64,000 nucleotides of DNA from Bolinopsis microptera (Eukaryota; Ctenophora; Tentaculata; Lobata; Bolinopsidae): positions 18,008,837-18,072,836 of the forward strand of contig NC_087073.1 in assembly GCF_026151205.1 (NCBI RefSeq), written 5' to 3'. Below the pieces are notes generated by a model. That model did not search any database, was not told where the DNA came from, and saw only the letters and a list, made by a program, of their open reading frames with translations. Below are positions 7,921 to 56,447 of the stretch, in pieces. Position numbers and translations under genes: made by a program. The stretch's first letter is position 1. Every line of letters begins with the position of its first letter.

Positions 7921-8790
7921 AGGCAAATAACACCTTCCGCAGGAAACTAACACGCTCACAGGCCCCCACATGACGTGTAACCCCAGGATTTGGTTTTGGA
8001 TCGGACACTGAAAACAACGATAGAGGAGCGGTCTACACGCTCACAGGCTACCATGTTTCGTGTAACCCCAGGATTTGACACGTTCACAGGCTACCATGTC
8101 TAGTGTAACCCCAGGATTTAGCACGCTCACAGACTACCACGTCTCGTGTAACCCTAGGACTCACTTAACAGACTCTAACACGCTCACAGGCTTCCACGTC
8201 TCGTGTACCCTAGGATTTGGTTTTGGATCGGACACTCAAAACAACGATAGAGAAGCGGTCTACACGCTCACAGGCTACCATGTCTCGTGTAACCCCAGGA
8301 TTTTACACGTTCACAGGCTACCACGCCTCGTGTACCCTAGGATTTTGTTTTGGATCGGACACTCAAAACAACGATAGAAGAGCGGTCTACACGCTCACAG
8401 ACTACCACGTCTCGTGTAACCCCAGGATTTAACACGCTCACAGGCTACCAAGTCTCGTGTAACCTTAGGATTTAACATGCTCACAGGCTACCAAGTCTCG
8501 TGTAACCCTAGGACTCTAACACTTAGCAGACTCTAACACGCTCGCAGGCTTCCACGTCTCGTGTACCCTAGGATTTGGTTTTGGATCGGACACTCAAATC
8601 AACGATAGAGGAGCGGACTACACGCTCACAGGCTACCATGTCTCGTGTAACCCCAGGATTTAACACGCTCACAGGCTACGACGTCTCGTGTAGCCCTAGG
8701 ACTCTAACACTTAACAGACTCTAACACGCTCACAGGCTTCTACGTCTCGTGTACCCTAGGATTTGGTTTTTGGATCGGACACTCAAAACA
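7921..8790 (+). repeat. Composite minisatellite array
   Basis: About 15 copies of a 40-45 bp core (acacgctcacaggctacca, then tctcgtgtaaccccaggat). Several copies carry an extra ~45 bp block (ggttttggatcggacactca, then aacgatagag). The higher-order period is near 90-170 bp. The array is read through by open frames, which is a consequence of the repeat rather than evidence of a gene. Confidence 0.9.
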
Positions 8791-9554
8791 ACGACAGAGG
8801 AGTGGTATACAGTGACGTTACAGGAACATTGCATACTCCTACGAGTTGCATGTAGCAGGCCATGACCGTCCCTGGAAGTCCCTGTCTCCTCATCGTTAAC
8901 CCGTAAGGGGTTGCACCAGGGGCGGTGGTAACAGAACTTCAAGACTCTCGGAGTCTGTTGTCGATATCTATGTATAATATAATTATGGTATATAACTTGG
9001 GAGTCTCTCTCTCTAGCAGCAGGAGTTGGAGAATGGGGACGCGTTGTGAAAGCCACCGCAAGGAAGGCTTACAGTCGACGCCGACCAATCAAAAGAAGAA
9101 CATCGCTCGCTCGCTTTTCCCATTCATTCACAGCCTACAAATAATTTATTATTGGCGAATGAATTTCCCAAGGGTTTAAGATCTTAAAAAGTTAAGAACA
9201 GCTGCCCATGCGCTACAGCTTGAGTTAGGCACTAGGCAGTGATTACAGTGATAACTGTTGATTGACCCTTCCAGATCGTAGAGGTCTGCAACACATGCTC
9301 GCTTTGCAAATGCATTGTTTTTATCTCTCTATAACTATAATAATAAAGTAATAAGCAATTAAAAGTTATGTCCGTAGCCCGCTCGCGTCGCACGTGCATA
9401 TTAATTATGAGTAATTAAACTTGCATGTTGTAGCATATTATTATATATTTTACCATAACCCATAATTGGGTAGAGTGGACCGTTGCCAGTGTTTGACAAA
9501 ACTCGGAGCCAAAAAAAACTGGATCATAATAATAAATTGTGATAAAGAGCATTA
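8791..9554. other. Non-coding stretch with dispersed repeat fragments
   Basis: The words cgctcgcttttcccattcat (about 9106) and gggtagagtggaccg (about 9468) recur at about 14819 and 14711, so short repeats are scattered here. No gene is supported. Confidence 0.5.
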
Positions 9555-9880
9555 CTAGAGCTACTGTTCGTAATAAGGTTCGGTTCTCCTCTATACTACA
9601 AGTACATAGGTTTTGGACTCGAGGCTTCCCCAATCCCCCTGGTAATGCGATCTCGGAAGGCAGGCCTCCCCTTTGCAACACAATGTCGGAAGCGGGAGCT
9701 CTCGATACAGGAGGTACGTATCGAGAATGACTCGGACCGAAAATGTTTTAAGTCAAAACTTTTTCAAAGTTTTCTGGAAATCACTTTTCTCCACGTTTCA
9801 TGCTACCATGTTCATTATTATCCGAAAATATCTGTTCGGTTTTTTGAATTCCGCACTTAGTCAAAACATTTTTGATTTTT
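9555..9880 (+). repeat. Diverged single monomer of the ~242 bp satellite
   Basis: It shares ggttttggactcgagg, tgcgatctcggaaggcaggc, gaagcgggagctct and gtacgtatcgagaatgact with the array at 26956-29003, with many substitutions. It is a solitary copy about 17 kb from the array. Confidence 0.85.
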
Positions 9881-16164: not shown

Positions 16165-18930
16165 ATTTTATATCTGCGCCATCCCGGAGTTGATGAATCC
16201 AGATTTTTGGAACATTTTTGGAACATTTTTGGAACATGTCCCAAAATTGTCCCAAAAGTGTCCCATGCATTTATTTGCCCTAATAAGCTCTAAATAGTGC
16301 CAAAAATAATTGTAAATGATGGATATAGGTAAAAACTAGGCCTAAGAGCCATCAAAACTCAAATAACATTACCCAGGTTCATGGAATGAACGAAAATGAA
16401 CAAAAATGAATATTGTCCTAAAAATGCTCAGAACGGTTTAAAATTGGTCGGAAAGTGTTTATATTGGTCCTATGACCACTCAAACCAAGTTTGGGAATCA
16501 CTGCATGTCTAGAACCGATGTTACCTATGTTCCAAAATGTTCCAATTTTGGGACAATAATCCTCCTGAGAATCCAGATTTTTGGAACATGGGCACATCGA
16601 AGTATTGGCTGTATTTAAGTGCTGGGAAGCCTCAATTCGGTTTTCTAAGATGGATATAGGTAAAAACTAGGCCTAAGAGCCATCAAAACTCAAATAACAT
16701 TACCCGGGTTCATGGAATGAACGAAAATGAACAAAAATGAATATTGTCCTAAAAATGCTCAGAACGGTTTAAAATTGGTCGGAAAGTGTTTATATTGGTC
16801 CTATGACCACTCAAACCAAGTTTGGGAATCACTGCATGTCTAGAACCGATGTTACCTATGTTCCAAAATGTTCCAATTTTGGGACAATAATCCTCCTGAG
16901 AATCCAGATTTTTGGAACATGGGCACATCGAAGTATTGGCTGTATTTAAGTGCTGGGAAGCCTCAATTCGGTTTTCTAAGATGGATATAGGTAAAAACTA
17001 GGCCTAAGAGCCATCAAAACTCAATTATATTTATAACATTACCCGGGTTCATGGAATGAACGAAAATGAACAAAAATGAATATTGTCCTAAAAATGCTCA
17101 GAACAGTTTAAAATTGGTCGGAAAGTGTTTATATTGGTCCTATGACCACTCAAACCAAGTTTGGGAATCACTGCATGTCTAGAACCGATGTTACCTATGT
17201 TCCAAAATGTTCCAATTTTGGGACAATAATCCTCCTGAGAATCCAGATTTTTGGAACATGGGCACATCGAAGTATTGGCTGTATTTAAGTGCTGGGAAGC
17301 CTCAATTCGGTTTTCTAAGATGGATATTATAGGTAAAAACTAGGCCTAAGAGCCATCAAAACTCAAATAACAATACCCAGGTTCATGTAATGAACGAAAA
17401 TGAACAAAAATGAATATTGTCCAAAAAATGCTCAGAACGGTTTAAAATTGGTCGGAAAGTGTTTATATTGGTCCTGCAACCACTCAAACCAAGTTTGGGA
17501 ATCACTGCATGTCTAGAACCGATGTTACCTATGTTCCAAAATGTTCCAATTTTGGGACAATAATCCTCCTGAGAATCCAGATTTTTGGAACATGGGCACA
17601 TCGAAGTATTGGCTGTATTTAAGTGCTGGGAAGCCTCAATTCGGTTTTCTAAGATGGATATAGGTAAAAACTAGGCCTAAGAGCCATCAAAACTCAAATA
17701 ACATTACCCAGGTTCATTTAATGAACGAAAATGAACAAAAATGAATATTGTCCTAAAAATGCTCAGAACGGTTTAAAATTAGTCGGAAAGTGTTTATATT
17801 GGTCCTATGACCACTCAAACCAAGTTTGGGAATCACTGCATGTCTACAACCGATGTTACCTATGTTCCAAAATGTTCCAATTTTGGGACAATAATCCTCC
17901 TGAGAATCCAGATTTTTGGAACATGGGCACATCGAAGTATTGGCTGTATTTAAGTGCTGGGAAGCATTTATATCAAAATATTGGAGGATTATTAAAACAA
18001 AAATATTTGCCCAATAAAATAATTTCTGTTTAATTGTACATAATTCTGAATGCAACTTTAAGACCCTGTTGGACGACAATATTGACTCTTTGCCACCATT
18101 TTTTAACCATTCTGAGTGCTTTGAGGAAAATTTTCATGTTCGTTGTTCATTCCATAAACTTGGGTAATATTATTCGACTTTTGATGGCTCCTCTATAAGG
18201 CCTAGTTTTTTTATATCCATCTTAGAAAACCGAATTGAGGCTTCCCAGCACTTCGATGTCCCCATGTTCCAAAAATCTGGATGCTCAGGAGGATTATTGT
18301 GACAACATTGGTAACATCGGGTCTAGACATGAAGTGATTCCCAAACTTTCCGACCAATTTAAAACCGTTCTGAGCATTTTTAGGACAATATTCATTTTTT
18401 GTTCATTTTCGTTCATTCCATGAACCTGGGTAATGTTATTTGAGTTTTGATGGCTCTTAGGCTTAGTTTTTACCTATATCCATCTTAGAAAACCGAATTG
18501 AGGCTTCCCAGCACTTAAATACAGCCAATACTTCGATGTGCCCATGTTCCAAAAATCTGGATTCTCAGGAGGATTATTGTGCCAAAATTGGAACATTTTG
18601 GAACATAGGTAACATCGGTTCTAGACATGCAGTGATTCCCAAACTTGGTTTGAGTGGTCCTAGGACCAATGTCAACACTTTCCGACCCATTTTAAACCAT
18701 TCTGAGCACTTTGAGAAGAATGTTCATTTTCGTTCATTTCTGGTCATTCCATGGGTAATTTTATACGACTTTTGATGGCTCCTAGGCCTAGCTTACGGCT
18801 ATATCCATTTTAGAAAACCGAACTGAGCCTTCCCAGCACTCAAATACGGCCAATACTGCGATGTGCCCATGTTCCAAATTTATGGATTCATCTACCGCCA
18901 TCCCGGCGCAGTTTATATCTCCGCCAAAAG
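16165..18930. mobile_element. Fold-back element with ~331-340 bp internal repeats
   Basis: Ends resemble each other in inverted orientation. The left has tatatctgcgcc-atcccgg-gatgaatcca-tttggaacat near 16170-16215, and the right has the complement near 18870-18925. Inside, five units start at about 16318, 16649, 16980, 17319 and 17653 in one orientation, each beginning gatggatat and ending ggttttctaa. After a ~115 bp unique spacer (17965-18080), one partial and two near-complete units run in the opposite orientation to about 18890. Open frames inside follow the repeat and are not genes. It lies just upstream of the lectin pseudogene. Confidence 0.85.
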
Positions 18931-19669: not shown

Positions 19670-20287
19670 AGCTCAACTCTAATAACTAAACTTTATAGTC
19701 ATCTGATCGTGACAATCATTTTAGTTTTAATACTGTCAAAATAATAAATAGAAGTAGCTCATCTCTAATAATAATAACTAGACTTTATAATTATAGTCAT
19801 CTCGTGAAAATTACTAGATTTTTAATACTATCATAACAATGGATAGAAGTTAAGAAGAAGCTCGACTCTAGTCTCTAATGACTATAGATCTCGTGACAAT
19901 AATTCCTAGATCATAGTCCTTGTAATGACAGTATTAAAACTGTAATAGTTGTCACGAGATGTTTGATCTAGTTGTTAGAGTTGAGCTATTCCTAGTCCTT
20001 GTAATGACAGTATTAAAACTGTAATAGTTGTCACGAGATGTTTGATCTAGTTGTTAGAGTTGAGCTATTCCTAGTCCTTGTTATGACAGTATTAAAACTG
20101 TAATAATTGTGACGAGATGTTTGATCTAGTTTAAGAGTTGAGCTATTCCTAGTCCTTGCTATGAAAGTATTAAAACTACAATAGTTGTCACGAGATGTTT
20201 GATCTATTTATTAGAGTTGAGCTATTCCTAGTCCTTGCTATGAAAGTATAGCTCAACTCTAACAACTAGATCAAACATCTCGTGACA
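19670..20287. repeat. Inverted and tandem array of a ~79 bp unit
   Basis: From about 19905, four and a half units of ~79 bp (tagtccttgt-atgacagtat, then taaaactgtaatagttgtca) run in one orientation. Diverged units before 19905 and the piece at 20249-20287 run the other way. A further copy is at 21697-21806, so the array brackets the ORF1 frame at 20507. Confidence 0.85.
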
Positions 20288-22745: not shown

Positions 22746-23974
22746 AAAAATAAAGGTATCAGACGAGTAGCTTAATTCCCTCAATTGAAGGAATAAATAT
22801 TGTAATGCTGCAGCGCAGGGCGCCGGGGCGCGGCATAGCAACCATCCAATACGCAACCATCCAATGCGAAAATTTAAAATCACATTTTGATATAATGCGC
22901 GTGAGTGCTTACAAATTTGCTTTTGGCGGAGATATAAACTGCGCCTTTGCATCCCTCCCCTCCGTTATACACATTGACATAGATATTGTGCTAAATTATA
23001 CTATGTACTTCTACTAGTGTACGCATAATCATTTAAAAAACCCCTCCCTCCCCCTCAGTCAACAGTGATTACGTAATACTAATAGTAATAGTAATATGTG
23101 ATTGTGAACGACCCGGCCTAAATATCATAATCACGATACTCTACCGCTACGTGACTGTGAGTAAATCAGTTAAATGGTGGCAGATGATACTCTACTTAAT
23201 TGATTTTAAATGGCCATGGATCATGATTAATCACTGACACTCTACACTCGACTGTCACGTGACTTTTTCAACCCGTTCTCTAGCTGGCTCTGAACGACTA
23301 TTCGAAACCCTAAACCTCTAATCTGATCTCAACCTTGTAGGTTTACAACCTACCAGGACGCGCGCCGAGTTGGACTCGTCGACGCGGTTCCAATATATGA
23401 AACAGATATTTCACGAGTATCACCCGTTAAATCTCATCCCTAACCCTTGGCCTTACCCAGTTACCCAATCCCTAACAAAAGCATTTGCTGAAATCCTAAC
23501 CGGAACCCTAACGAGAAATTATACTAACTTCCTTATTGCTTTTAGTTTTACGGTCATATCACGTGATCGAGACAGTTTTTTGCCAATATCTTGATTTTGA
23601 TTTGATTTGAAACTTTTACAAATAGTACATTATACAATACAGCAAAGAGAATTAAAAATATACGACATTATTATCATGAGGCATTTGTAGGGTAAAAGTT
23701 GTAGTCCATATTGTATAAATACTAAAAGCATGGTTAAGTGGTACAAGTTCTGGGGGTATACGTATTACAAGTAATAGTTCTACTCCCAGACTCACTAACA
23801 CCACCTCCATCTAAACACACAAAATGTATCTAAAACACGCAAATTTAGAATTATCAAAATAAATACATAATGTATCCATGACCTGACTCATAGTGCGCCA
23901 AAAATTGCGCGCGTATCATCACACAGCGCTTAGAAGCAAGATAACAGTCGGATATAAAGTTCGCGTAATCCAGT
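22746..23974. other. Gene-free stretch with dispersed repeats
   Basis: 22915-22955 is the inverted counterpart of the sequence at 18904-18935 (ggcggagatataaactgcgc). 23328-23430 is the inverted counterpart of 9905-10012. The short open frames here have no protein-like composition. Confidence 0.5.
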
Positions 23975-24189
23975 CAGAAGACGTTTCCCTGAATTTTGTA
24001 GTGGATTTTGTAGTGGATTTTGCGCGCCGAACGTACGTTACAATATTTATAATTGTAGAATCTACGACGCTAGTAGTCAGAAGTCTCAATAAACTGCTCG
24101 TATTTATACTTTTATAGACACTGAGATATAGAAATCTAAGTAACACATCCAACCCCATTCAGGCCGCCCATCCAAAATAGCTTGAAATC

Positions 24190-26225
24190 TGTGACAAATC
24201 CCTAAAAATCCAGAGTAAGAATCTTTACCCCTAGGCCCAGAAAGAGATTTGTGTTGCTGAGTATTTGAAACATGTTTTGGTGGTTAAATAAGTAGTACAT
24301 ATCCATATCCCAAACCATCATAAAAATCAAGTTTCGACCTCTCAACCCACTCAATCTAGGTAAACTATAGGTAAAAATATAATATTAATCATAAGCTAAA
24401 ATGTACTAATCTTTGTATTCTAAATGGGGAAAAAGAAGAAACATTGTCAGTCAGTCGAGAAAATTGTCAGTCAGGCTATATGGCAGCTTTGTAGATGTTG
24501 TGACTATGCTAGTAGTGGTCCCAGGCTTGCAAGCCACTCCCAGAGGCCATGCCAATCCCAAAATTACTAAAATCCAGGTTAAATTCAGACTTTAAAATCT
24601 TTACCCCTGTAGTGCTTATATGTTCCGGGTAGGTGGGACATGTTTTAGTTTTAAAATGGGTTCTACCTGTCCCAAACCATCATAAAAATCAAGATTCGAC
24701 CTCTCAACCAACTCAGACCACTACAAGGGGCCACGCCCATCCCAAAATTACCGAAATCCAGCTAAAATCCAGACTTTAAAATCTTTACCCCTGTAGTGCT
24801 TTTATGTTCCGGGGTAGGTGGGACATGTTTTAGTTTAAAAATGGGTTCTAGCTGTCCCAAACCATCATAAAAATCAAGTTTCGACCTCTCAACCCACTCA
24901 GGCCACTCCCAGGGGCCACGCCCATCCCAAAATTACCGAAATCCAGCTAAAATCCAGACTTTAAAATCTTTACCCCTGTAGTGCTTTTATGTTCCGGGGT
25001 AGGTGGGACATGTTTTAGTTTTAAAATGGGTTCTAGCTGTCCCAAACCATCATAAAAATCAAGTTTCGACCTCTCAACCCACTCAGGCCACTCCCAGGGG
25101 CCACGCCCATCCCAAAATTACCGAAATCCAGCTAAAATCCAGACTTTAAAATCTTTACCCCTGTAGTGCTTTTATGTTCCGGGGTAGGTGGGACATGTTT
25201 TAGTTTAAAAATGGGTTCTAGCCTGTCCCAAACCATCATAAAAATCAAGTTTCGACCTCTCAACCCACTCAGGCCACTCCCAGGGGCCACGCCCATCCCA
25301 AAATGACCGAAATCCAGCTAAAATCCAGACTTTAAAATCTTTACCCCTGTAGTGCTTTTATGTTCCGGGGTAGGTGGGACATGTTTTAGTTTTAAAATGG
25401 GTTCTAGCCTGTCCCAAACCATCATAAAAATCAAGTTTCGACCTCTCAACCCACTCAGGCCACTCCCAGGGGCCACGCCCATCCCAAAATTACCGAAATC
25501 CAGCTAAAATCCAGACTTTAAAATCTTTACCCCTGTAGTGCTTTTATGTTCCGGGGTAGGTGGGACATGTTTTAGTTTAAAAATGGGTTCTAGCCTGTCC
25601 CAAACCATCATAAAAATCAAGTTTCGACCTCTCAACCCACTCAGGCCACTCCCAGGGGCCACGCCCATCCCAAAATGACCGAAATCCAGCTAAAATCCAG
25701 ACTTTAAAATCTTTACCCCTGTAGTGCTTTTATGTTCCGGGGTAGGTGGGACATGTTTTAGTTTAAAAATGGGTTCTACCTGTCCCAAACCATCATAAAA
25801 ATCAAGTTTCGACCTCTCAACCCACTCAGGGCCACTCCCAGGGGCCACGCCCATCCCAAAATGACCGAAATCCAGCTAAAATCCAGACTTTAAAATCTTT
25901 ACCCCTGTAGTGCTTTTATGTTCCGGGGTAGGTGGGACATGTTTTAGTTTTAAAATGGGTTCTAGCCTGTCCCAAACCATCATAAAAATCAAGTTTCGAC
26001 CTCTCAACCCACTCAGGCCACTCCCAGGGGCCACGCCCATCCCAAAATTACCGAAATCCAGCTAAAATCCAGACTTTAAAATCTTTACCCCTGTAGTGCT
26101 TTTATGTTCCGGGGTAGGTGGGACATGTTTTAGTTTAAAAATGGGTTCTACCTGTCCCAAACCATCATAAAAATCAAGTTTCGACCTCTCAACCCACTCA
26201 GGCCACTCCCAGGGGCCACGCCTAA
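24190..26225 (+). repeat. Satellite A, left array (period 185-187 bp)
   Basis: Eight good units between 24727 and 26225, each containing ccaggggccacgcccatccc, tttacccctgtagtgctttt and cccaaaccatcataaaaatc, preceded by decayed units back to about 24190. Copies vary slightly (tagctgtccc/tagcctgtccc/tacctgtccc; attaccg/atgaccg). Confidence 0.95.
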
Positions 26226-26955
26226 TCCAGAAAAGCTACAGGAAGTGGGGTGGGGCAAAATTAATGTTACATACGTTGAGTATTATACCATCACCGTGTT
26301 TCATATTATGGACCTGAAACTTTGCAGATGGCATGCTGTAACTATTCATTCGAGGATTCCGTCGCCAATGTTCGAAAATTTGAATATTTAGACTACGCCT
26401 ATATAATATTAAATCACCCATATTGTTCTTTCCGGACATGCTAGACGCCCATTTATTTCAGATTACTGCAGATAATTAATTGTTGCATCTGATCTGAAAA
26501 ATTGAGGCCAAACGTATTTGAAATGACGAAGTTATCAAGCATTTAATGTATCTCGTTAACAAAATTGATTGGGTGATTATGTGATAGGTCACCTTAATTG
26601 GGTTCCCTTGCAATTTGACGGGGCCATCTAATCACCTGAACAGGTAATCGAATCACCTGATCACACGTAATGGATAAACTCGTCATGCCTCGTATCTCGG
26701 TCATCTGAGAAGCTACAACTCTCATTTTTTCAGATCAAACGTAATTTGAATGGCCAAATACTATCCTATAAAATTTGGCTCGATCTGATTATCAAAACTA
26801 TCAATAAATGCGATCATGAACCTTCATTAAAAAAATGAAAATGAATATTCTTTGATTTAATATATTCCTCGAATGAGTGGTGATAGTAAGTCATACCAAA
26901 AAGAATACCCCGGAACATAAATCCCCTACAAGTGTAAAGATTCTCATTCTGTCTC
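26226..26955. repeat. Spacer inside the 8 kb unit, with a dispersed repeat and a satellite A fragment
   Basis: 26287-26400 matches 1912-2025. Near 26905-26940 a piece of inverted satellite A appears (accccggaacataaa, gtgtaaagatt). No gene is supported. Confidence 0.6.
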
Positions 26956-29003
26956 AAATGAAACTACTTTTGTTCATGTTTCATGCTACCCTGATCATTC
27001 TGAGCCAAAAATAATTTTTTTCGGTTTTCGAAGTTCGATATACGATTTTGGACTCGAGGGTCCCCTTTGTAATGCGATCTCGAGGGTCCCCTTTGTAATG
27101 CGATCTCGGAAGGCAGGCCTCCCCTTCGCAATACGAGCTCGGAAGCGGGAGCTCTGCTTTCAGAGGTACGTATCGAGAATGACTCGGACCGAAAATTTTC
27201 TAAGTCAAAATTTTTAAAAGTTTTTCTGGAAACTACTTTTGTTCATGTTTCATAATACCCTGATCATTCTGAGCGAAAAATAATTTTTTTTCGGTTTTCG
27301 AAGTTCGATATACGATTTTGGACTCGAGGGTCCCCTTTGTAATGCGATCTCGGAAGGCAGGCCTCCCCTTCGCAATACGAGCTCGGAAGCGGGAGCTCTG
27401 CTTTCAGAGGTACGTATCGAGAATGACTAAGACTGAACATTTTCTAAGTCCAAATTTTTAAAAGTTTTTCTGGAAACTACTTTTGTTCATGATTCATGCT
27501 ACCCTGATCATTCTGAGCCAAAAATAATTTTTTTTCGGTTTTCGAAGTTCGATATACGATTTTGGACTCGAGGGTCCCCTTTGTAATGCGATCTCGGAAG
27601 GCAGGCCTCCCCTTCGCAATACGAGCTCGGAAGCGGGAGCTCTGCTTTCAGAGGTACGTATCGAGAATGACTAAGACTGAACATTTTCTAAGTCCAAATT
27701 TTTAAAAGTTTTTCTGGAAACTACTTTTGTTCATGTTTCATGCTACCCTGATCATTCTGAGCCAAAAATAATTTTTTTCGGTTTTCGAAGTTTGATATAC
27801 GATTTTGGACTCGAGGGTCCCCTTTGTAATGCGATCTAGAAGGCAGGCCTCCCCTTCGCAATACGAGCTCGGAAGCGGGAGCTCTGCTTTCAGAGGTACG
27901 TATCGAGAATGACTAAGACTGAAAATTTTCTAAGTACAAATTTTTAAAAGTTTTTCTGGAAACTACTTTTGTTCATGTTTCATGCTACCCTGATCATTCT
28001 GAGCCAAAAATAATTTTTTTTCGGTTTTCGAAGTTCGATATACGATTTTGGACTCGAGGGTCCCCTTTGTAATGCGATCTCAGAAGGCAGGCCTCCCCTT
28101 CGCAATACGAGCTCGGAAGCGGGAGCTCTGCTTTCAGAGGTACGTATCGAGAATGACTAGACTGAAAATTTTCTAAGTCCAAATTTTTAAAAGTTTTTCT
28201 GGAAACTACTTTTGTTCATGTTTCATAATACCCTGATCATTCTGAGCCAAAAATAATTTTTTTTGGTTTTCGAAGTTCGATATACGATTTTGGACTCGAG
28301 GGTCCCCTTTGTAATGCGATCTCGGAAGGCAGGCCTCCCCTTCGCAATACGAGCTCGGAAGCGGGAGCTCTGCTTTCAGAGGTACGTATCGAGAATGACT
28401 AAGACTGAACATTTTCTAAGTCCAAATTTTTAAAAGTTTTTCTGGAAACTACTTTTGTTCATGATTCATGCTACCCTGATCATTCTGAGCCAAAAATAAT
28501 TTTTTTCGGTTTTCGAAGTTCGATATACGATTTTGGACTCGAGGGTCCCCTTTGTAATGCGATCTCGGAAGGCAGGCCTCCCCTTCGCAATACGAGCTCG
28601 GAAGCGGGAGCTCTGCTTTCAGAGGTACGTATCGAGAATGACTAAGACTGAACATTTTCTAAGTCCAAATTTTTAAAAGTTTTTCTGGAAACTACTTTTG
28701 TTCATGTTTCATGCTACCCTGATCATTCTGAGCCAAAAATAATTTTTTTCGGTTTTCGAAGTTCGATATACGATTTTGGACTCGAGGGCCCCCTTTGTAA
28801 TGCGATCTAAGAAGGCAGGCCTCCCCTTCACAATACCAGCTCGGAAGCGGGAGCTCTGCTTTCAGAGGTACGTATCGAGAATGACTAAGACTGAAAATTT
28901 TCTAAGTCAACATTTTTGAAAGTTTTTATGGAAACTACTTTTGTTCATGTTTCATGCTACCCTGATCATTCTGAGCCAAAAATAATTTTTTCGGTTTTCG
29001 AAG
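26956..29003 (+). repeat. Satellite B array (period ~242 bp)
   Basis: Units begin aaactacttttgttcatg at about 26961, 27230, 27471, 27719, 27960, 28204, 28447, 28689 and a partial 28931. The first unit is longer (269) because a ~26 bp stretch around ctcgagggtcccctttgtaa is duplicated. Each unit has a GC-rich centre with gagctcggaagcgggagctc. Reverse-strand open frames of 62-68 codons recur once per unit and are repeat by-products. Confidence 0.95.
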
Positions 29004-29036
29004 TCCGTACCTACATTCGAAAATTCGTGGATGTGA

Positions 29037-31915
29037 GTGGGTTGAGAGGTCGAAACTTGATTTTTATGATGGTTTGGGACAGGCAGAACCCATTTTTAAA
29101 CTAAAACATGTCCCACCTACCCCGGAACATAAAAGCACTACAGGGGTAAAGATTTTAAAGTCTGGATTTAGCTGGATTTCGGTCATTTTGGGATGGGCGT
29201 GGCCCCTGGGAGTGGCCCGAGTGGGTTGAGAGGTCGAAACTTGATTTTTATGATGGTTTGGGACAGGCAGAACCCATTTTTAAACTAAAACATGTCCCAC
29301 CTACCCCGGAACATAAAAGCACTACAGGGGTAAAGATTTTAAAGTCTGGATTTAGCTGGATTTCGGTCATTTTGGGATGGGCGTGGCCCCTGGGAGTGGC
29401 CCGAGTGGGTTGAGAGGTCGAAACTTGATTTTTATGATGGTTTGGGACAGGCAGAACCCATTTTTAAACTAAAACATGTCCCACCTACCCCGGAACATAA
29501 AAGCACTACAGGGGTAAAGATTTTAAAGTCTGGATTTAGCTGGATTTCGGTCATTTTGGGATGGGCGTGGCCCCTGGGAGTGGCCCGAGTGGGTTGAGAG
29601 GTCGAAACTTGATTTTTATGATGGTTTGGGACAGGCAGAACCCATTTTTAAACTAAAACATGTCCCACCTACCCCGGAACATAAAAGCACTACAGGGGTA
29701 AAGATTTTAAAGTCTGGATTTAGCTGGATTTCGGTCATTTTGGGATGGGCGTGGCCCCTGGGAGTGGCCCGAGTGGGTTGAGAGGTCGAAACTTGATTTT
29801 TATGATGGTTTGGGACAGGCAGAACCCATTTTTAAACTAAAACATGTCCCACCTACCCCGGAACATAAAAGCACTACAGGGGTAAAGATTTTAAAGTCTG
29901 GATTTAGCTGGATTTCGGTCATTTTGGGATGGGCGTGGCCCCTGGGAGTGGCCCGAGTGGGTTGAGAGGTCGAAACTTGATTTTTATGATGGTTTGGGAC
30001 AGGCAGAACCCATTTTTAAACTAAAACATGTCCCACCTACCCCGGAACATAAAAGCACTACAGGGGTAAAGATTTTAAAGTCTGGATTTAGCTGGATTTC
30101 GGTCATTTTGGGATGGGCGTGGCCCCTGGGAGTGGCCCGAGTGGGTTGAGAGGTCGAAACTTGATTTTTATGATGGTTTGGGACAGGCAGAACCCATTTT
30201 TAAACTAAAACATGTCCCACCTACCCCGGAACATAAAAGCACTACAGGGGTAAAGATTTTAAAGTCTGGATTTAGCTGGATTTCGGTCATTTTGGGATGG
30301 GCGTGGCCCCTGGGAGTGGCCCGAGTGGGTTGAGAGGTCGAAACTTGATTTTTATGATGGTTTGGGACAGGCAGAACCCATTTTTAAACTAAAACATGTC
30401 CCACCTACCCCGGAACATAAAAGCACTACAGGGGTAAAGATTTTAAAGTCTGGATTTAGCTGGATTTCGGTCATTTTGGGATGGGCGTGGCCCCTGGGAG
30501 TGGCCCGAGTGGGTTGAGAGGTCGAAACTTGATTTTTATGATGGTTTGGGACAGGCAGAACCCATTTTTAAACTAAAACATGTCCCACCTACCCCGGAAC
30601 ATAAAAGCACTACAGGGGTAAAGATTTTAAAGTCTGGATTTAGCTGGATTTCGGTCATTTTGGGATGGGCGTGGCCCCTGGGAGTGGCCCGAGTGGGTTG
30701 AGAGGTCGAAACTTGATTTTTATGATGGTTTGGGACAGGCAGAACCCATTTTTAAACTAAAACATGTCCCACCTACCCCGGAACATAAAAGCACTACAGG
30801 GGTAAAGATTTTAAAGTCTGGATTTAGCTGGATTTCGGTCATTTTGGGATGGGCGTGGCCCCTGGGAGTGGCCCGAGTGGGTTGAGAGGTCGAAACTTGA
30901 TTTTTATGATGGTTTGGGACAGGCAGAACCCATTTTTAAACTAAAACATGTCCCACCTACCCCGGAACATAAAAGCACTACAGGGGTAAAGATTTTAAAG
31001 TCTGGATTTAGCTGGATTTCGGTCATTTTGGGATGGGCGTGGCCCCTGGGAGTGGCCCGAGTGGGTTGAGAGGTCGAAACTTGATTTTTATGATGGTTTG
31101 GGACAGGCAGAACCCATTTTTAAACTAAAACATGTCCCACCTACCCCGGAACATAAAAGCACTACAGGGGTAAAGATTTTAAAGTCTGGATTTAGCTGGA
31201 TTTCGGTCATTTTGGGATGGGCGTGGCCCCTGGGAGTGGCCCGAGTGGGTTGAGAGGTCGAAACTTGATTTTTATGATGGTTTGGGACAGGCAGAACCCA
31301 TTTTTAAACTAAAACATGTCCCACCTACCCCGGAACATAAAAGCACTACAGGGGTAAAGATTTTAAAGTCTGGATTTAGCTGGATTTCGGTCATTTTGGG
31401 ATGGGCGTGGCCCCTGGGAGTGGCCCGAGTGGGTTGAGAGGTCGAAACTTGATTTTTATGATGGTTTGGGACAGGCAGAACCCATTTTTAAACTAAAACA
31501 TGTCCCACCTACCCCGGAACATAAAAGCACTACAGGGGTAAAGATTTTAAAGTCTGGATTTAGCTGGATTTCGGTCATTTTGGGATGGGCGTGGCCCCTG
31601 GGAGTGGCCCGAGTGGGTTGAGAGGTCGAAACTTGATTTTTATGATGGTTTGGGACAGGCAGAACCCATTTTTAAACTAAAACATGTCCCACCTACCCCG
31701 GAACATAAAAGCACTACAGGGGTAAAGATTTTAAAGTCTGGATTTAGCTGGATTTCGGTCATTTTGGGATGGGCGTGGCCCCTGGGAGTGGCCCGAGTGG
31801 GTTGAGAGGTCGAAACTTGATTTTTATGATGGTTTGGGACAGGCAGAACCCATTTTTAAACTAAAACATGTTCCACCTACCCCGGAACATAAAAGCACTA
31901 CAGGGGTGAAAAGCA
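29037..31915 (-). repeat. Satellite A, right array, inverted (period 184 bp)
   Basis: About 15.6 units, each starting gtgggttgagaggtcgaaac at 184-base steps from 29037 to about 31797. Units are nearly identical to one another, in contrast to the more variable left array. This points to recent amplification or homogenisation. Confidence 0.95.
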
Positions 31916-32132
31916 CTACAAATCCACTACAAAAATCAAGGAAACGTGCTCTCAATCCAGTTAAGTATATTAACTGAGGACTGCACCAGGGTCAAGTCAT
32001 GGTGACAGAACGTAAATGTTATTTAATATTATTTAATAGATTTATTTTTATATTATAGTTGTTATATTCAGTATCGTGACCGATCTATCAGTGGCGGGGG
32101 CCCACATATAAATATCATTTGCACTCATTAAC

Positions 32133-52511: not shown

Positions 52512-53642
52512 CTATACACTTATTGAAGTATTACCAACAATGAGATGTGTATCCAGTCACTGTGATTCACATTGATTTGATCATGTAATATTCACAACAG
52601 AACCATCTTTACTTCCCCAGCAGACGTTTGTCGAATTCTGTTTTCTTACAATGGTTAGATTTGATTAAGAATATTACAAATTTGTATTCAAATTTAAAAG
52701 AATTGAAAGGCAAATTCAATTTCAAGGAATGGAAGATTACTTAATATCCAAGAAAAACTTTCCAATTAGTCAATTAGTCAGAAAAGCATGAGTGTGCATA
52801 ATATAATTGATCAAATTATTCTTTTAACATAAAAATCAAACATCTTAATTACATCAAAAATCTGTCAATTTCATCAAATCATTAACAAACAATTTCATAA
52901 GGTATAAAAACATGCAACCATGTGAGCTGAACTGCAACTTAGAGGATTGTAGGACAAAGGTGGTAGACGGGACTCTAAATCGTATACAAAATTATGAACC
53001 TTTGGTAGATCTTATCATTTGCTCAATCATATCCCATTGGTCGGGGGTAATTTCAGATAATCCATTAAACATTCCACCCATATAGTTTGCTAATCCTCCG
53101 TCAAAGTCGATTCGCTGGCCTGTCAACCATGAAGATGCAGGGTGAACAAGATAGCAGGCTAAATTAGCCAATTCCTCAACCTCCCCCTCACGTCCAACAG
53201 GAACTTGATCGACCATCTTATTAGTTCCCTCTCCACCTGGATCAAGTCTGGAGAAAGCTCCTTTTGTATAGATTGGTCCGGGTCCAATACTGTTCATCCT
53301 AATACCATATCGTCCCCACTCTGATGCTAGTGAGTGTGTCATTGCATCAACTCCGGCTTTTGCACAAGCAGATGGTAGCACAAATCCTGTTCCTTTAAAT
53401 CCAGAGACGGTTATGTTAAGAAATGTTCCTCCTGAAATAAGATATGTTTAAAGAGATCATCCCTTAAACTAATCATATTAGTTTACATAATTCTAAATTT
53501 ATAGCATGTAATATAATAAGCTTGCTCTAACCTGTCTTTTCTTCAATCATCTTTTTACCAAATGCTGATGTTACATTGAATGTACCCTGCAGTACAATGC
53601 TTGTTACAGCATTAAAGCCTTTAGCTGACAGTCTCTCTGATG

Positions 53643-54949: not shown

Positions 54950-56447
54950 TTGTCTAACGAATGAACGATAAGCTGGACCAGAGAGACATCAAGAGTAAGT
55001 TTCTTACTTTTGAAACACTCAGTTAGAGGTTCACTTAGATAAAGCAACTGGGACGATGTGCTACTTTTTAGCAGTTCTGTAAACCAACCCAAATCTTTTG
55101 AGCTTTTTAATCTCTCGGTTATCTTCTTACGTTCATTTGACGTGTAAAGCTTGCCAAGGTCTACATCCATCTATACACTTATTGAAGTATTACCAACAAT
55201 GAGATGTGTATCCAGTCACTGTGATTCACATTGATTTGATCATGTAATATTCACAACAGAACCATCTTTACTTCCCCAGCAGACGTTTGTCGAATTCTGT
55301 TTTCTTACAATGGTTAGATTTGATTAAGAATATTACAAATTTGTATTCAAATTTAAAAGAATTGAAAGGCAAATTCAATTTCAAGGAATGGAAGATTACT
55401 TAATATCCAAGAAAAACTTTCCAATTAGTCAATTAGTCAGAAAAGCATGAGTGTGCATAATATAATTGATCAAATTATTCTTTTAACATAAAAATCAAAC
55501 ATCTTAATTACATCAAAAATCTGTCAATTTCATCAAATCATTAACAAACAATTTCATAAGGTATAAAAACATGCAACCATGTGAGCTGAACTGCAACTTA
55601 GAGGATTGTAGGACAAAGGTGGTAGACGGGACTCTAAAATCTAAATCGTATACAAAATTATGAACCTTTGGTAGATCTTATCATTTGCTCAATCATATCC
55701 CATTGGTCGGGGGTAATTTCAGATAATCCATTAAACATTCCACCCATATAGTTTGCTAATCCTCCGTCAAAGTCGATTCGCTGGCCTGTCAACCATGAAG
55801 ATGCAGGGTGAACAAGATAGCAGGCTAAATTAGCCAATTCCTCAACCTCCCCCACACGTCCAACAGGAACTTGATCGACCATCTTATTAGTTCCCTCTCC
55901 ACCTGGATCAAGTCTGGAGAAAGCTCCTTTTGTATAGATTGGTCCGGGTCCAATACTGTTCATCCTAATACCATATCGTCCCCACTCTGATGCTAGTGAG
56001 TGTGTCATTGCATCAACTCCGGCTTTTGCACAAGCAGATGGTAGCACAAATCCTGTTCCTTTAAATCCAGAGACGGTTATGTTAAGAAATGTTCCTCCTG
56101 AAATAAGATATGTTTAAAGAGATCATCCCTTAAACTAATCATATTAGTTTACATAATTCTAAATTTATAGCATGTAATATAATCAGCTTGCTCTAACCTG
56201 TCTTTTCTTCAATCATCTTTTTACCAAATGCTGATGTTACATTGAATGTACCCTGCAGTACAATGCTTGTTACAGCATTAAAGCCTTTAGCTGACAGTCT
56301 CTCTGATGGGGCAATGAAGTTTCCTGCTGCATTATTTACAACAGCATTTGGAATTCCATGATCTTCTACAAATTGATCTGCCACAGCAGAAACCTGCAAG
56401 ACAGTAATATTATGTAAAGTGATAGAAAAAGTAATTTGTCATGAAGT
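54950..56447 (-). repeat. Tandem duplication, distal copy (uninterrupted)
   Basis: Partner of 52297-54949. The junction at about 54948 joins DECR1 intron (catgaagttt) to THADA coding sequence (tgtctaacgaatg), with a few bases of shared agttt. Confidence 0.95.
54951..55170 (-). pseudogene. 5' fragment of THADA exon 1
   Basis: The first 73-74 codons of THADA, identical in protein sequence to 52511 onward, run into DECR1 intron DNA and a stop two codons later. It includes the THADA start and about 140 bases upstream, so a promoter or splice site could also have been copied. Confidence 0.95.

Follow-up and report, generated by a model that had tools for sequence, protein, structure and literature searches.

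A foldback-type transposon family with satellite arrays as its arms in the ctenophore Bolinopsis microptera

It has long been asked how tandem repeats come to occupy new sites on chromosomes, and in the genome of the ctenophore Bolinopsis microptera a vehicle can be read directly. Within the window, which is the whole stretch of 64,000 nucleotides of contig NC_087073.1 analysed here, a unit of 7,979 bp (23975-31953), directly abutted at each end by AATCCAGT, is very probably one copy of a non-autonomous, foldback-type family served by a transposase supplied in trans, where a motif of the ends, as the putative binding site, would have been amplified in the arms, and the satellite would have spread with the whole element. 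In class, it is a foldback-type, non-autonomous DNA transposon, with long inverted repeats that bear tandem units, a discrete insertion with duplication, and no transposase gene found in the copies scanned. Its occurrence in a ctenophore host means that the device is not confined to flies. The window element is composed as follows:

23967-23974, no strand: left target-site duplication, AATCCAGT, present two times at the filled site and a single time at each of the 15 empty sites read
23975-24161, plus strand: left terminal domain, its first 34 bp forming the inverted repeat, with two copies of TGTAGTGGATTT
24162-24532, plus strand: left arm, degenerate outermost part (the outermost monomers are the most divergent ones in 13 left arms of this subfamily)
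24533-26222, plus strand: left arm, satellite A array, 186 bp x 9.1 (about 9 monomers of 185-186 bp)
26223-27052, plus strand: spacer; this middle module recurs in the family and lies in both orientations among other copies
27053-29004, plus strand: satellite B array, 243 bp x 7.9 (about 8 copies), belonging to the middle module; the tandem array proper spans 27079-29004
29035-31907, minus strand: right arm, satellite A array, 184 bp x 15.6, opposed to the left arm
31908-31953, minus strand: right terminal domain, its last 34 bp forming the inverted repeat
31954-31961, no strand: right target-site duplication, AATCCAGT, with the same counts as the left one

The array lengths are those given by the assembly. 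A first-pass annotation had delimited a unit at 23967-31961, with imperfect terminal inverted repeats, a matching 8-bp direct repeat exactly outside both ends and satellite A opposed in two internally tandem arms, and these boundaries are right to the base. The inverted ends agree at 29 of 34 bases; when a 7,979-bp segment is placed at each of the 56,022 possible positions in the window, no other placement does as well (the runner-up reaches 20). Within the 64 kb, AATCCAGT has just two occurrences, starting at 23967 and 31954, and none on the opposite strand. The accompanying caution, that satellite A could produce the 8-mer by coincidence, is void given these two sole occurrences and a satellite A that holds AATCCAG, not AATCCAGT. 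Monomers of the left and right arms are 97-98% complementary (25 longest of 492 pairs), and the element contains no open reading frame of 110 amino acids or more. As for the middle, the description as satellite B plus a unique spacer holds for the satellite but not for the spacer, which recurs as a family module.

The flanks of the window element are part of a genomic repeat, and the search for an empty site was run on paralogous sites of the same assembly. The joined flank is covered in full by 24 genome matches, of which 20 have 92-99% identity, and all 15 that were read are uninterrupted and carry a single AATCCAGT. The element entered a known repeat as a single piece of 7,979 bp and duplicated 8 bp there, and its ends, its duplication, the empty sites and the relatives at other loci all agree with the early suggestion that it behaves like one transposed element. 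For two more copies, the assembly contains an empty counterpart at another place (C93 versus C11, and C19 versus C74). The absence of any transposition, with an ordinary dispersed satellite bearing coincidental end repeats, or a segmental duplication, finds some support in the AATCCAG within satellite A, but its likelihood is practically nil: the single target in the 15 empty sites refutes it for the window copy, the duplication differs from locus to locus, and the ends are exact at many unlinked loci. A chance match of the 8-mer is ruled out by its two occurrences in the window and its single copy in the empty sites, and segmental duplication by the target duplications together with the empty sites.

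The survey of the genome (264.65 Mb, same assembly as the window) for other copies of the ends, as had been proposed, found a 24-bp end pattern 162 times when up to two mismatches were allowed, against none for the reversed control. From this and further end searches, 54 inverted end pairs, the window element included, were assembled by hand. These relatives, inserted likewise at other sites, have the same asymmetric ends, a left one starting with CAGAAG and a right one with GAGAGC, and an end sequence ACGTTTCC; the first 76-77 bp of the window element recur with 100% identity at six other loci. Fifteen short copies of 0.4-0.8 kb (L049-L063) mostly have the same flanks, so they were treated as copies of a single old insertion that had been amplified within another repeat, and the count of duplications uses the remaining 39 pairs; within this short group, L051 shows an exact duplication and L056 one with a mismatch. 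Exact 8-bp duplications flank 26 of the 39 pairs (18/30, 3/4 and 5/5), and 3 of the 13 others have a 7-bp duplication or one offset by a base. Two elements, E03 and E04, lie at paralogous, non-independent sites, neither with an exact duplication. E03 also holds a nested element, whose junctions were read off the sequence and alignment.

Many members of the family bear opposed arrays of the 184-bp satellite, with up to 42 monomers on the left and 58 on the right, and the longest elements reach 20.8 kb. Short copies exist with 0-4 full monomers, and tandem repeats inside long inverted repeats characterize the whole family except the shortest copies (E14, E16 and E30), which have no full monomer. 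Genome-wide, 506 of 761 satellite A anchors fall within 30 fetched elements, and the 100 listed of those 761 come from four loci, all of which contain one family end or more. In a second listing of monomers (100 of 1,628), 8 of the 100 adjoin no family end seen, in arrays of up to three listed monomers. Among the matches listed in both searches (100 of 761 and 100 of 1,628), nearly all satellite A sits in family elements, and no long array was found apart from them. The idea that a mobile element with a satellite body is a route for the spread of tandem repeats gains from these data, with the same satellite lying between the same ends at dozens of sites.

A motif formed by TGTA, a variable tetramer or so, and TTT is repeated in both ends, and most satellite monomers contain it once. 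For the main subfamilies, the version of this motif that is most frequent among the monomers (AGTGC, AGGGG or ATGCG) is also present in the ends, and the sequences indicate that end motif and monomer motif change together between subfamilies, although with so few subfamilies this agreement amounts to a handful of events. Based on this recurrence, the left end of the TGTATGCG subfamily was predicted, and the prediction found 24 matches (21 at two mismatches and 3 at three; control, 0), which pair with 13 of the 17 listed right ends of TGTATGCG type. There are mismatches as well: the outer end motifs of subfamily T are AGTGG-ATTT, its inner end motif and its monomers have AGTGC-TTTT, and in at least 10 of its copies the outermost left monomer has GGAGGGGATTT; the left end of E18 has AGGGG, L100 monomers have ATACG and ATGCA, short copies mix motif versions, and the E11 left and E29 right arrays are decayed. 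The motif changes significantly faster than the rest of the monomer in one of six comparisons, T versus the TGTATGCG subfamily (p = 0.0005).

This motif may be the binding site of the transposase, in which case each arm would be an array of binding sites. A transposase acting in trans, putatively of the hAT type, would move the elements of the family, unequal exchange would have expanded the arms out of the terminal region of the element itself, and the satellite would spread through transposition of the whole element. Opposed arms may also recombine and flip the middle, as suggested by copies at different sites: the middle module is found in both orientations, and in E27 and E02 the middles, 1,340 bp long, are inverted relative to each other and align over their full length at 97.2% identity. 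A bolder version, to which we give slightly less than even chances, would have the satellite as an amplified putative transposase-binding site under selection, with ends and monomers switching specificity together (AGTGC, AGGGG, ATGCG) and so driving satellite turnover, and with recombination of the opposed arms yielding two isomers. If true, the satellite would spread itself and offer a living model for the origin of transposase-bound satellites, of which the CENP-B box of centromeres is an example. The way in which end motif and monomers match from one subfamily to the next makes the proposal of extra transposase sites testable genome-wide.

A serious alternative, although we favour it less, is that transposition involves elements whose arms hold just one to a few monomers, and that arrays later grow in place by slippage or unequal exchange, the satellite being a by-product and not a cargo. 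Array size varies greatly among copies, down to the short ones mentioned above, and some arrays are nearly uniform within one insertion (15 full monomers in just two sequence versions in the right arm of the window element, 19 in two in the right arm of E27, and 22 in three in that of E15). Comparisons of monomer order and of shared polymorphism do not establish that arrays moved as wholes. Across 36 array pairs, the best of 30 shuffles was beaten by 9 of 27 same-arm pairs and by 8 of 9 opposite-arm pairs, which disfavours an arm-specific order, although the uniformity of the arrays makes this test uninformative. Polymorphic columns shared by left arms without E20 numbered 5 in at least three arrays (null mean 0.94, maximum 6) and 8 in at least two (null 9.7); with E20 they were 20 in at least two arrays (null 42.9) and 4 in at least four (null 0.63, maximum 4), and right arms likewise gave 3 against 4.3 and 1 against 0.0035 (maximum 1). 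Against growth in place, 9 of 18 copies with exact duplications in the 30-element set have at least 10 monomers in both arms, and growth would have been needed many times. Moreover, many arrays have a common consensus instead of private fixed changes (8 right arms have one, 7 left arms another, and others differ by 1-3 sites or more), a weak argument, since young copies would look alike under either reading.

For the superfamily of the transposase, hAT is our guess. Elements of the hAT superfamily produce 8-bp duplications and have short inverted repeats beginning with CAG or TAG, which fits the 8-bp duplications and CAG-starting left ends of this family, its right ends reading GAGAGC, and the genome abounds in hAT domains (365 candidates, of which 150 were scored). 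None of the 150 scored domains lies inside any of the 54 + 13 end pairs, and close to the hAT domains near the orphan left ends C9:12530264 and C6:20317589 no right end was found within 2 kb at up to four substitutions. The 17 open reading frames scanned, from 8 of 30 whole elements, contain no transposase domain, a scan that a split or decayed gene would escape, and correspond to LINE reverse transcriptases, a few cargo-like genes and unknowns. A transposase from another superfamily with 7-8 bp duplications (P/Galileo, KDZ or Merlin) is a credible candidate, if the less probable one: the 21 tabulated duplications have no hAT-like consensus, and tandem repeats within long inverted repeats are likewise present in Galileo, a member of the P superfamily (PMC3573991), and in Tetris, the two elements closest in structure. 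The duplication length, the left ends and the abundant hAT domains speak against such a source, although none of the 150 scored domains is tied to the ends. Helitrons are not known to have inverted terminal repeats or target-site duplications. A Helitron-like element with a captured satellite, as in bivalves and Drosophila, is ruled out by the inverted terminal repeats and 8-bp duplications of the family, and its two arms of opposed arrays also make this extremely improbable, even if central satellite arrays are frequent in Helitrons according to the excerpts of PMC12628747.

The window contains a second satellite transposon, built on the same plan and belonging to an unrelated family:

16179-16186, no strand: target-site duplication, CCATCCCG
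16187-18897, no strand: second element, 2,711 bp, with ends GAGTTGATGAATCCA / CGGTAGATGAATCCA
16318-17965 and about 18068-18889: opposed arrays of a 331-bp satellite
18898-18905, no strand: target-site duplication, CCATCCCG

Flank searches did not find its empty site: on the right, the flank matches a repeat beginning exactly at the junction, and on the left it matches only itself. Under the bolder version above, two unrelated families within 64 kb would imply a standing mechanism in this genome.

Among foldback elements, FB and the sea urchin TU have inverted repeats of short tandem units, whereas the units here are of 184 and 331 bp. A sea urchin foldback element is also cited in the excerpts of PMC4079207. 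In miDNA4 of Xenopus, a Tc1/mariner MITE of variable copy number, as well as in Xstir of the same genus and in Donax MITEs, a satellite monomer or array lies inside a small inverted-repeat element, as it does here, where copy number also varies; two opposed arrays carrying the end motif are not described for satellite-bearing MITEs in the excerpts of PMC12628747 and PMC9659126. The closest known systems, from the excerpted reports, are Tetris and Galileo, and the present case goes beyond both, as there described, in its scale, in the presence of two neighbouring, unrelated families built alike, and in the match of end motif to monomers from subfamily to subfamily. Galileo, a Drosophila element of the P superfamily, also has long inverted repeats, with two or three copies of ~210-bp tandem repeats in one subfamily, and secondary transposase sites are stated for a related Galileo; its transposase is known and its repeats are far fewer (PMC3573991). 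Tetris, the Drosophila virilis foldback transposon with TIR-220 tandem repeats, is likewise non-autonomous, with opposed inverted repeats, internal tandem repeats of ~220 bp, a variable middle and duplications of 8-9 bp, and its repeats are thought to derive from the terminal domain and are likened to transposase-binding repeats, which parallels the family described here (excerpts of PMC4079207). There, three structurally complete copies with inverted repeats of up to 1,735 bp are reported, in contrast to tens of copies here with arms of up to 58 monomers, and satellite-like arrays of kb size, in contrast to no long free arrays among the matches listed here. In the same excerpted text, larger arrays are proposed to have possibly disrupted Tetris transposition, whereas four copies of 12.8-19.7 kb in the present family have exact duplications.

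The first-pass annotation had proposed that an ~8 kb unit at 23967..31961 behaves as one transposed element, and its position is borne out: AATCCAGT lies at 23967-23974 and again at 31954-31961, with no third occurrence in the 64 kb, and encloses an element of 7,979 bp (23975-31953). The imperfect terminal inverted repeats claimed for it are also real, since CAGAAGACGTTTCCCTGAATTTTGTAGTGGATTT and GAGAGCACGTTTCCTTGATTTTTGTAGTGGATTT agree at 29 of their 34 positions, the top score among 56,022 equal-length placements in the window (the runner-up being 20). The arms of satellite A, a 184-bp repeat, are indeed opposed, and a spacer (26223-27052) and satellite B, a 243-bp repeat, occupy the middle. 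The features, together with a second, unrelated element of the same plan, are:

24533-26222, left arm, satellite A
27079-29004, satellite B, with the spacer, between the arms
29035-31907, right arm, satellite A, inverted relative to the left arm
16187-18897, second element, opposed arrays of a 331-bp satellite, ends matching at 22 of 28 bases, exact duplication CCATCCCG

Some arrays of the family are nearly uniform, among them the right arm of this 8-kb element (15 monomers, two versions). No ORF of 110 aa or more was found in this copy.

The unit was inserted. An empty site was sought, as the annotation had suggested, in 264,652,675 bases of genome in 232 contigs (about 258 of 264.65 Mb in thirteen of them), with 250 bp from each flank joined by a single 8-mer. 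This 500-bp query has 24 full-length matches, 20 with 92-99% identity and 4 with 80-81%, and in all 15 junctions read of these 24 there is a single AATCCAGT and no element. A further copy, on contig C93, has a 7-bp duplication and an empty counterpart at C11:9643767-9643919 (99%), and one on C19 has its own on C74 (93%), with one ATCTAATT; both pairs come from one assembly and may be alleles or duplicates.

The unit also belongs to a family. A 24-bp end pattern has 162 genome matches at ≤2 mismatches, 100 of them listed, and its reversed control none. The search for other copies of the ends, likewise proposed earlier, gave 54 left and right ends paired in inverted orientation, the window included, which were assembled by hand from the ends listed by this and other end searches; many further family ends remained without a partner. 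Thirty pairs were read whole (E01-E30, window included), as were fifteen short ones, which are excluded from the duplication count because most have host-repeat flanks in common; for the other nine, reading was limited to the ends. Exact 8-bp duplications flank 18 of the 30, plus 3 of 4 and 5 of 5 others, that is 26 of 39 pairs, against a chance expectation of ~0.0006 (4^-8 each). Near-duplications (7 bp, or one base extra) flank E21, E29 and the C93 copy, and the remaining ten of the 39 pairs show no recognisable duplication. Left and right ends each retain their own distinct sequence in the copies read.

Satellite A anchors number 761 genome-wide, with 506 inside the 30 elements and two in the fetched flanks, beside E12, at the position of E13. 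The 100 anchors that were listed fall in four loci, all of them with one or more family ends. With a looser monomer pattern there are 1,628 matches, and 8 of the 100 listed lack a seen end adjoining. Separately, a solo monomer ~80% identical to satellite B lies at window 9611-9859, outside any element seen.

The 30 elements range from 308 to 20,805 bp and hold 736 full satellite A monomers, 0-42 in the left arm and 0-58 in the right. The 18 copies with exact duplications carry 4-85 monomers each (median 28), nine of them with at least 10 in both arms. Subfamilies T, G and TGTATGCG differ in the motif version in ends and monomers. The left arrays of subfamily T have a strongly diverged outermost monomer, with a mean of 61 differences from the array consensus (13 arrays) against 3.3 for monomers in the middle; no such diverged edge monomer was found in right arms. 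One consensus is common to eight right arms and the left arm of E15, another to seven left arms, and an intermediate one to five arrays. Among the 17 elements with comparable arms, the two arms differ at 3-5 sites in 13; three elements show a single difference and E11 has 43. Arms of mixed type occur in E02, E10, E15, E25 and E29. In E15 (L026), the left end and at least 30 bp of flank are tripled in a 325-bp tandem array at 100% identity, which is a nascent array spanning the insertion junction.

Motifs like TGTAGTGGATTT occur in two or three copies per end and once in most monomers. Subfamily T has AGTGG ATTT as the outer motif of its ends, AGTGC TTTT as the inner motif of the right end and AGTGC TTTT in its commonest monomer, and subfamily G has AGGGG ATTT in ends and monomers alike. 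In a group represented by loci L099 and L100, the right ends bear ATGCG ATTT, which recurs in all three full monomers of L099, the two of L100 being ATACG and ATGCA; every listed row of the array at C2:22441430-22443670 has ATGCG except one with ATGCA. For this group the left end was predicted from the motif rule and then searched in the genome, giving 24 matches (21 at 2 mismatches, 3 at 3; control 0). In those 21 the mismatches fall outside the motif, and the 24 matches include C2:22441005 and C2:22984029, which lie 425 bp ahead of arrays known beforehand to carry ATGCG. Among the listed right ends of this type, 13 of 17 pair with a predicted left end. The agreement is imperfect. At least 10 T copies have GGAGGGGATTT in their outermost left monomer; in E18 the right end and two monomers show AGTGG, the left end AGGGG; the short copies combine AGGGG ends with AGGAG and ATGGG monomers; and two arrays, E11-left and E29-right, have decayed. 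Only one of six comparisons shows the motif changing faster than the remainder of the monomer. We take the motif as the putative site of the transposase, matching what is stated for Galileo and proposed for Tetris in the parts consulted of two reports (PMC3573991, PMC4079207).

The middle of these elements is found in both orientations. Of 12 subfamily T copies with the spacer body, seven carry it one way and five the other (some matches reaching just 75-76% identity); in subfamily G it has a single orientation (6/6). E27 and E02 have middles of 1,340 bp that align in inverted orientation along their length at 97.2% identity, and large parts are mutually inverted between E10/E21 and E13/E17/E20. 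Recombination between the opposed arms would flip the middle.

Two unrelated satellite-transposon families are thus represented side by side in the window. The ends of the second element differ in sequence from those of the 8-kb element, and 53 right ends of its family occur in the genome at ≤1 mismatch (control 0); its terminal motif GAATCCAGATTTTTGGAACA recurs in the forward monomers. No empty site for the window's second element was found in the genome. A relative is nested in E03 with its own duplication GGGGATTT (junctions read from printed sequence): E03 and E04 (L011, L012) occupy paralogous sites 137 kb apart, E04 being an uninterrupted element of 559 bp and E03 interrupted by the second-family transposon. 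E25 (L040) and E22 (L036) lie 5-7 bp from a second-family right end, perhaps reflecting a target preference.

No transposase domain was found among 17 ORFs scanned from 8 elements. The genome is rich in hAT domains, and none of 150 scored falls within the 54 pairs or 13 further TGTATGCG-subfamily pairs. An 8-bp duplication and a CAG start fit hAT, and for this reason our guess is that the mobilising transposase is of that type. The window unit is confirmed as a clear, large case of a foldback-type transposon with a satellite-DNA body; its novelty lies in degree and in the evidence from motifs and flipping, and the general idea is already published. For Bolinopsis microptera, whose genome is reported as 265 Mb in 13 chromosomes, the word "transposable" was not found in the portions consulted of the main texts of PMC11797021 and PMC10232365, and no such element in a ctenophore was found by title or abstract start in a small part of the literature.

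Some elements carry other sequences. E24 (L038-L039, 17.8 kb, exact duplication) has a 475-aa ORF in its middle. Among named proteins its nearest relatives come from Mnemiopsis leidyi, and LDL-receptor and rhodopsin-type receptor domains occur in many related ones; the ORF is either a host gene carried by the satellite transposon or was inserted later. E28 (L044) contains ORFs with NERD and helicase-like P-loop domains. Elsewhere in the window there are two additional tandem arrays, at 7948-8802 (43-bp based) and 19914-20249 (79-bp), and a 2,4-dienoyl-CoA reductase-like ORF occurs twice, at 52992-53447 and 55658-56113, one residue different and 2.7 kb apart, probably through recent duplication.
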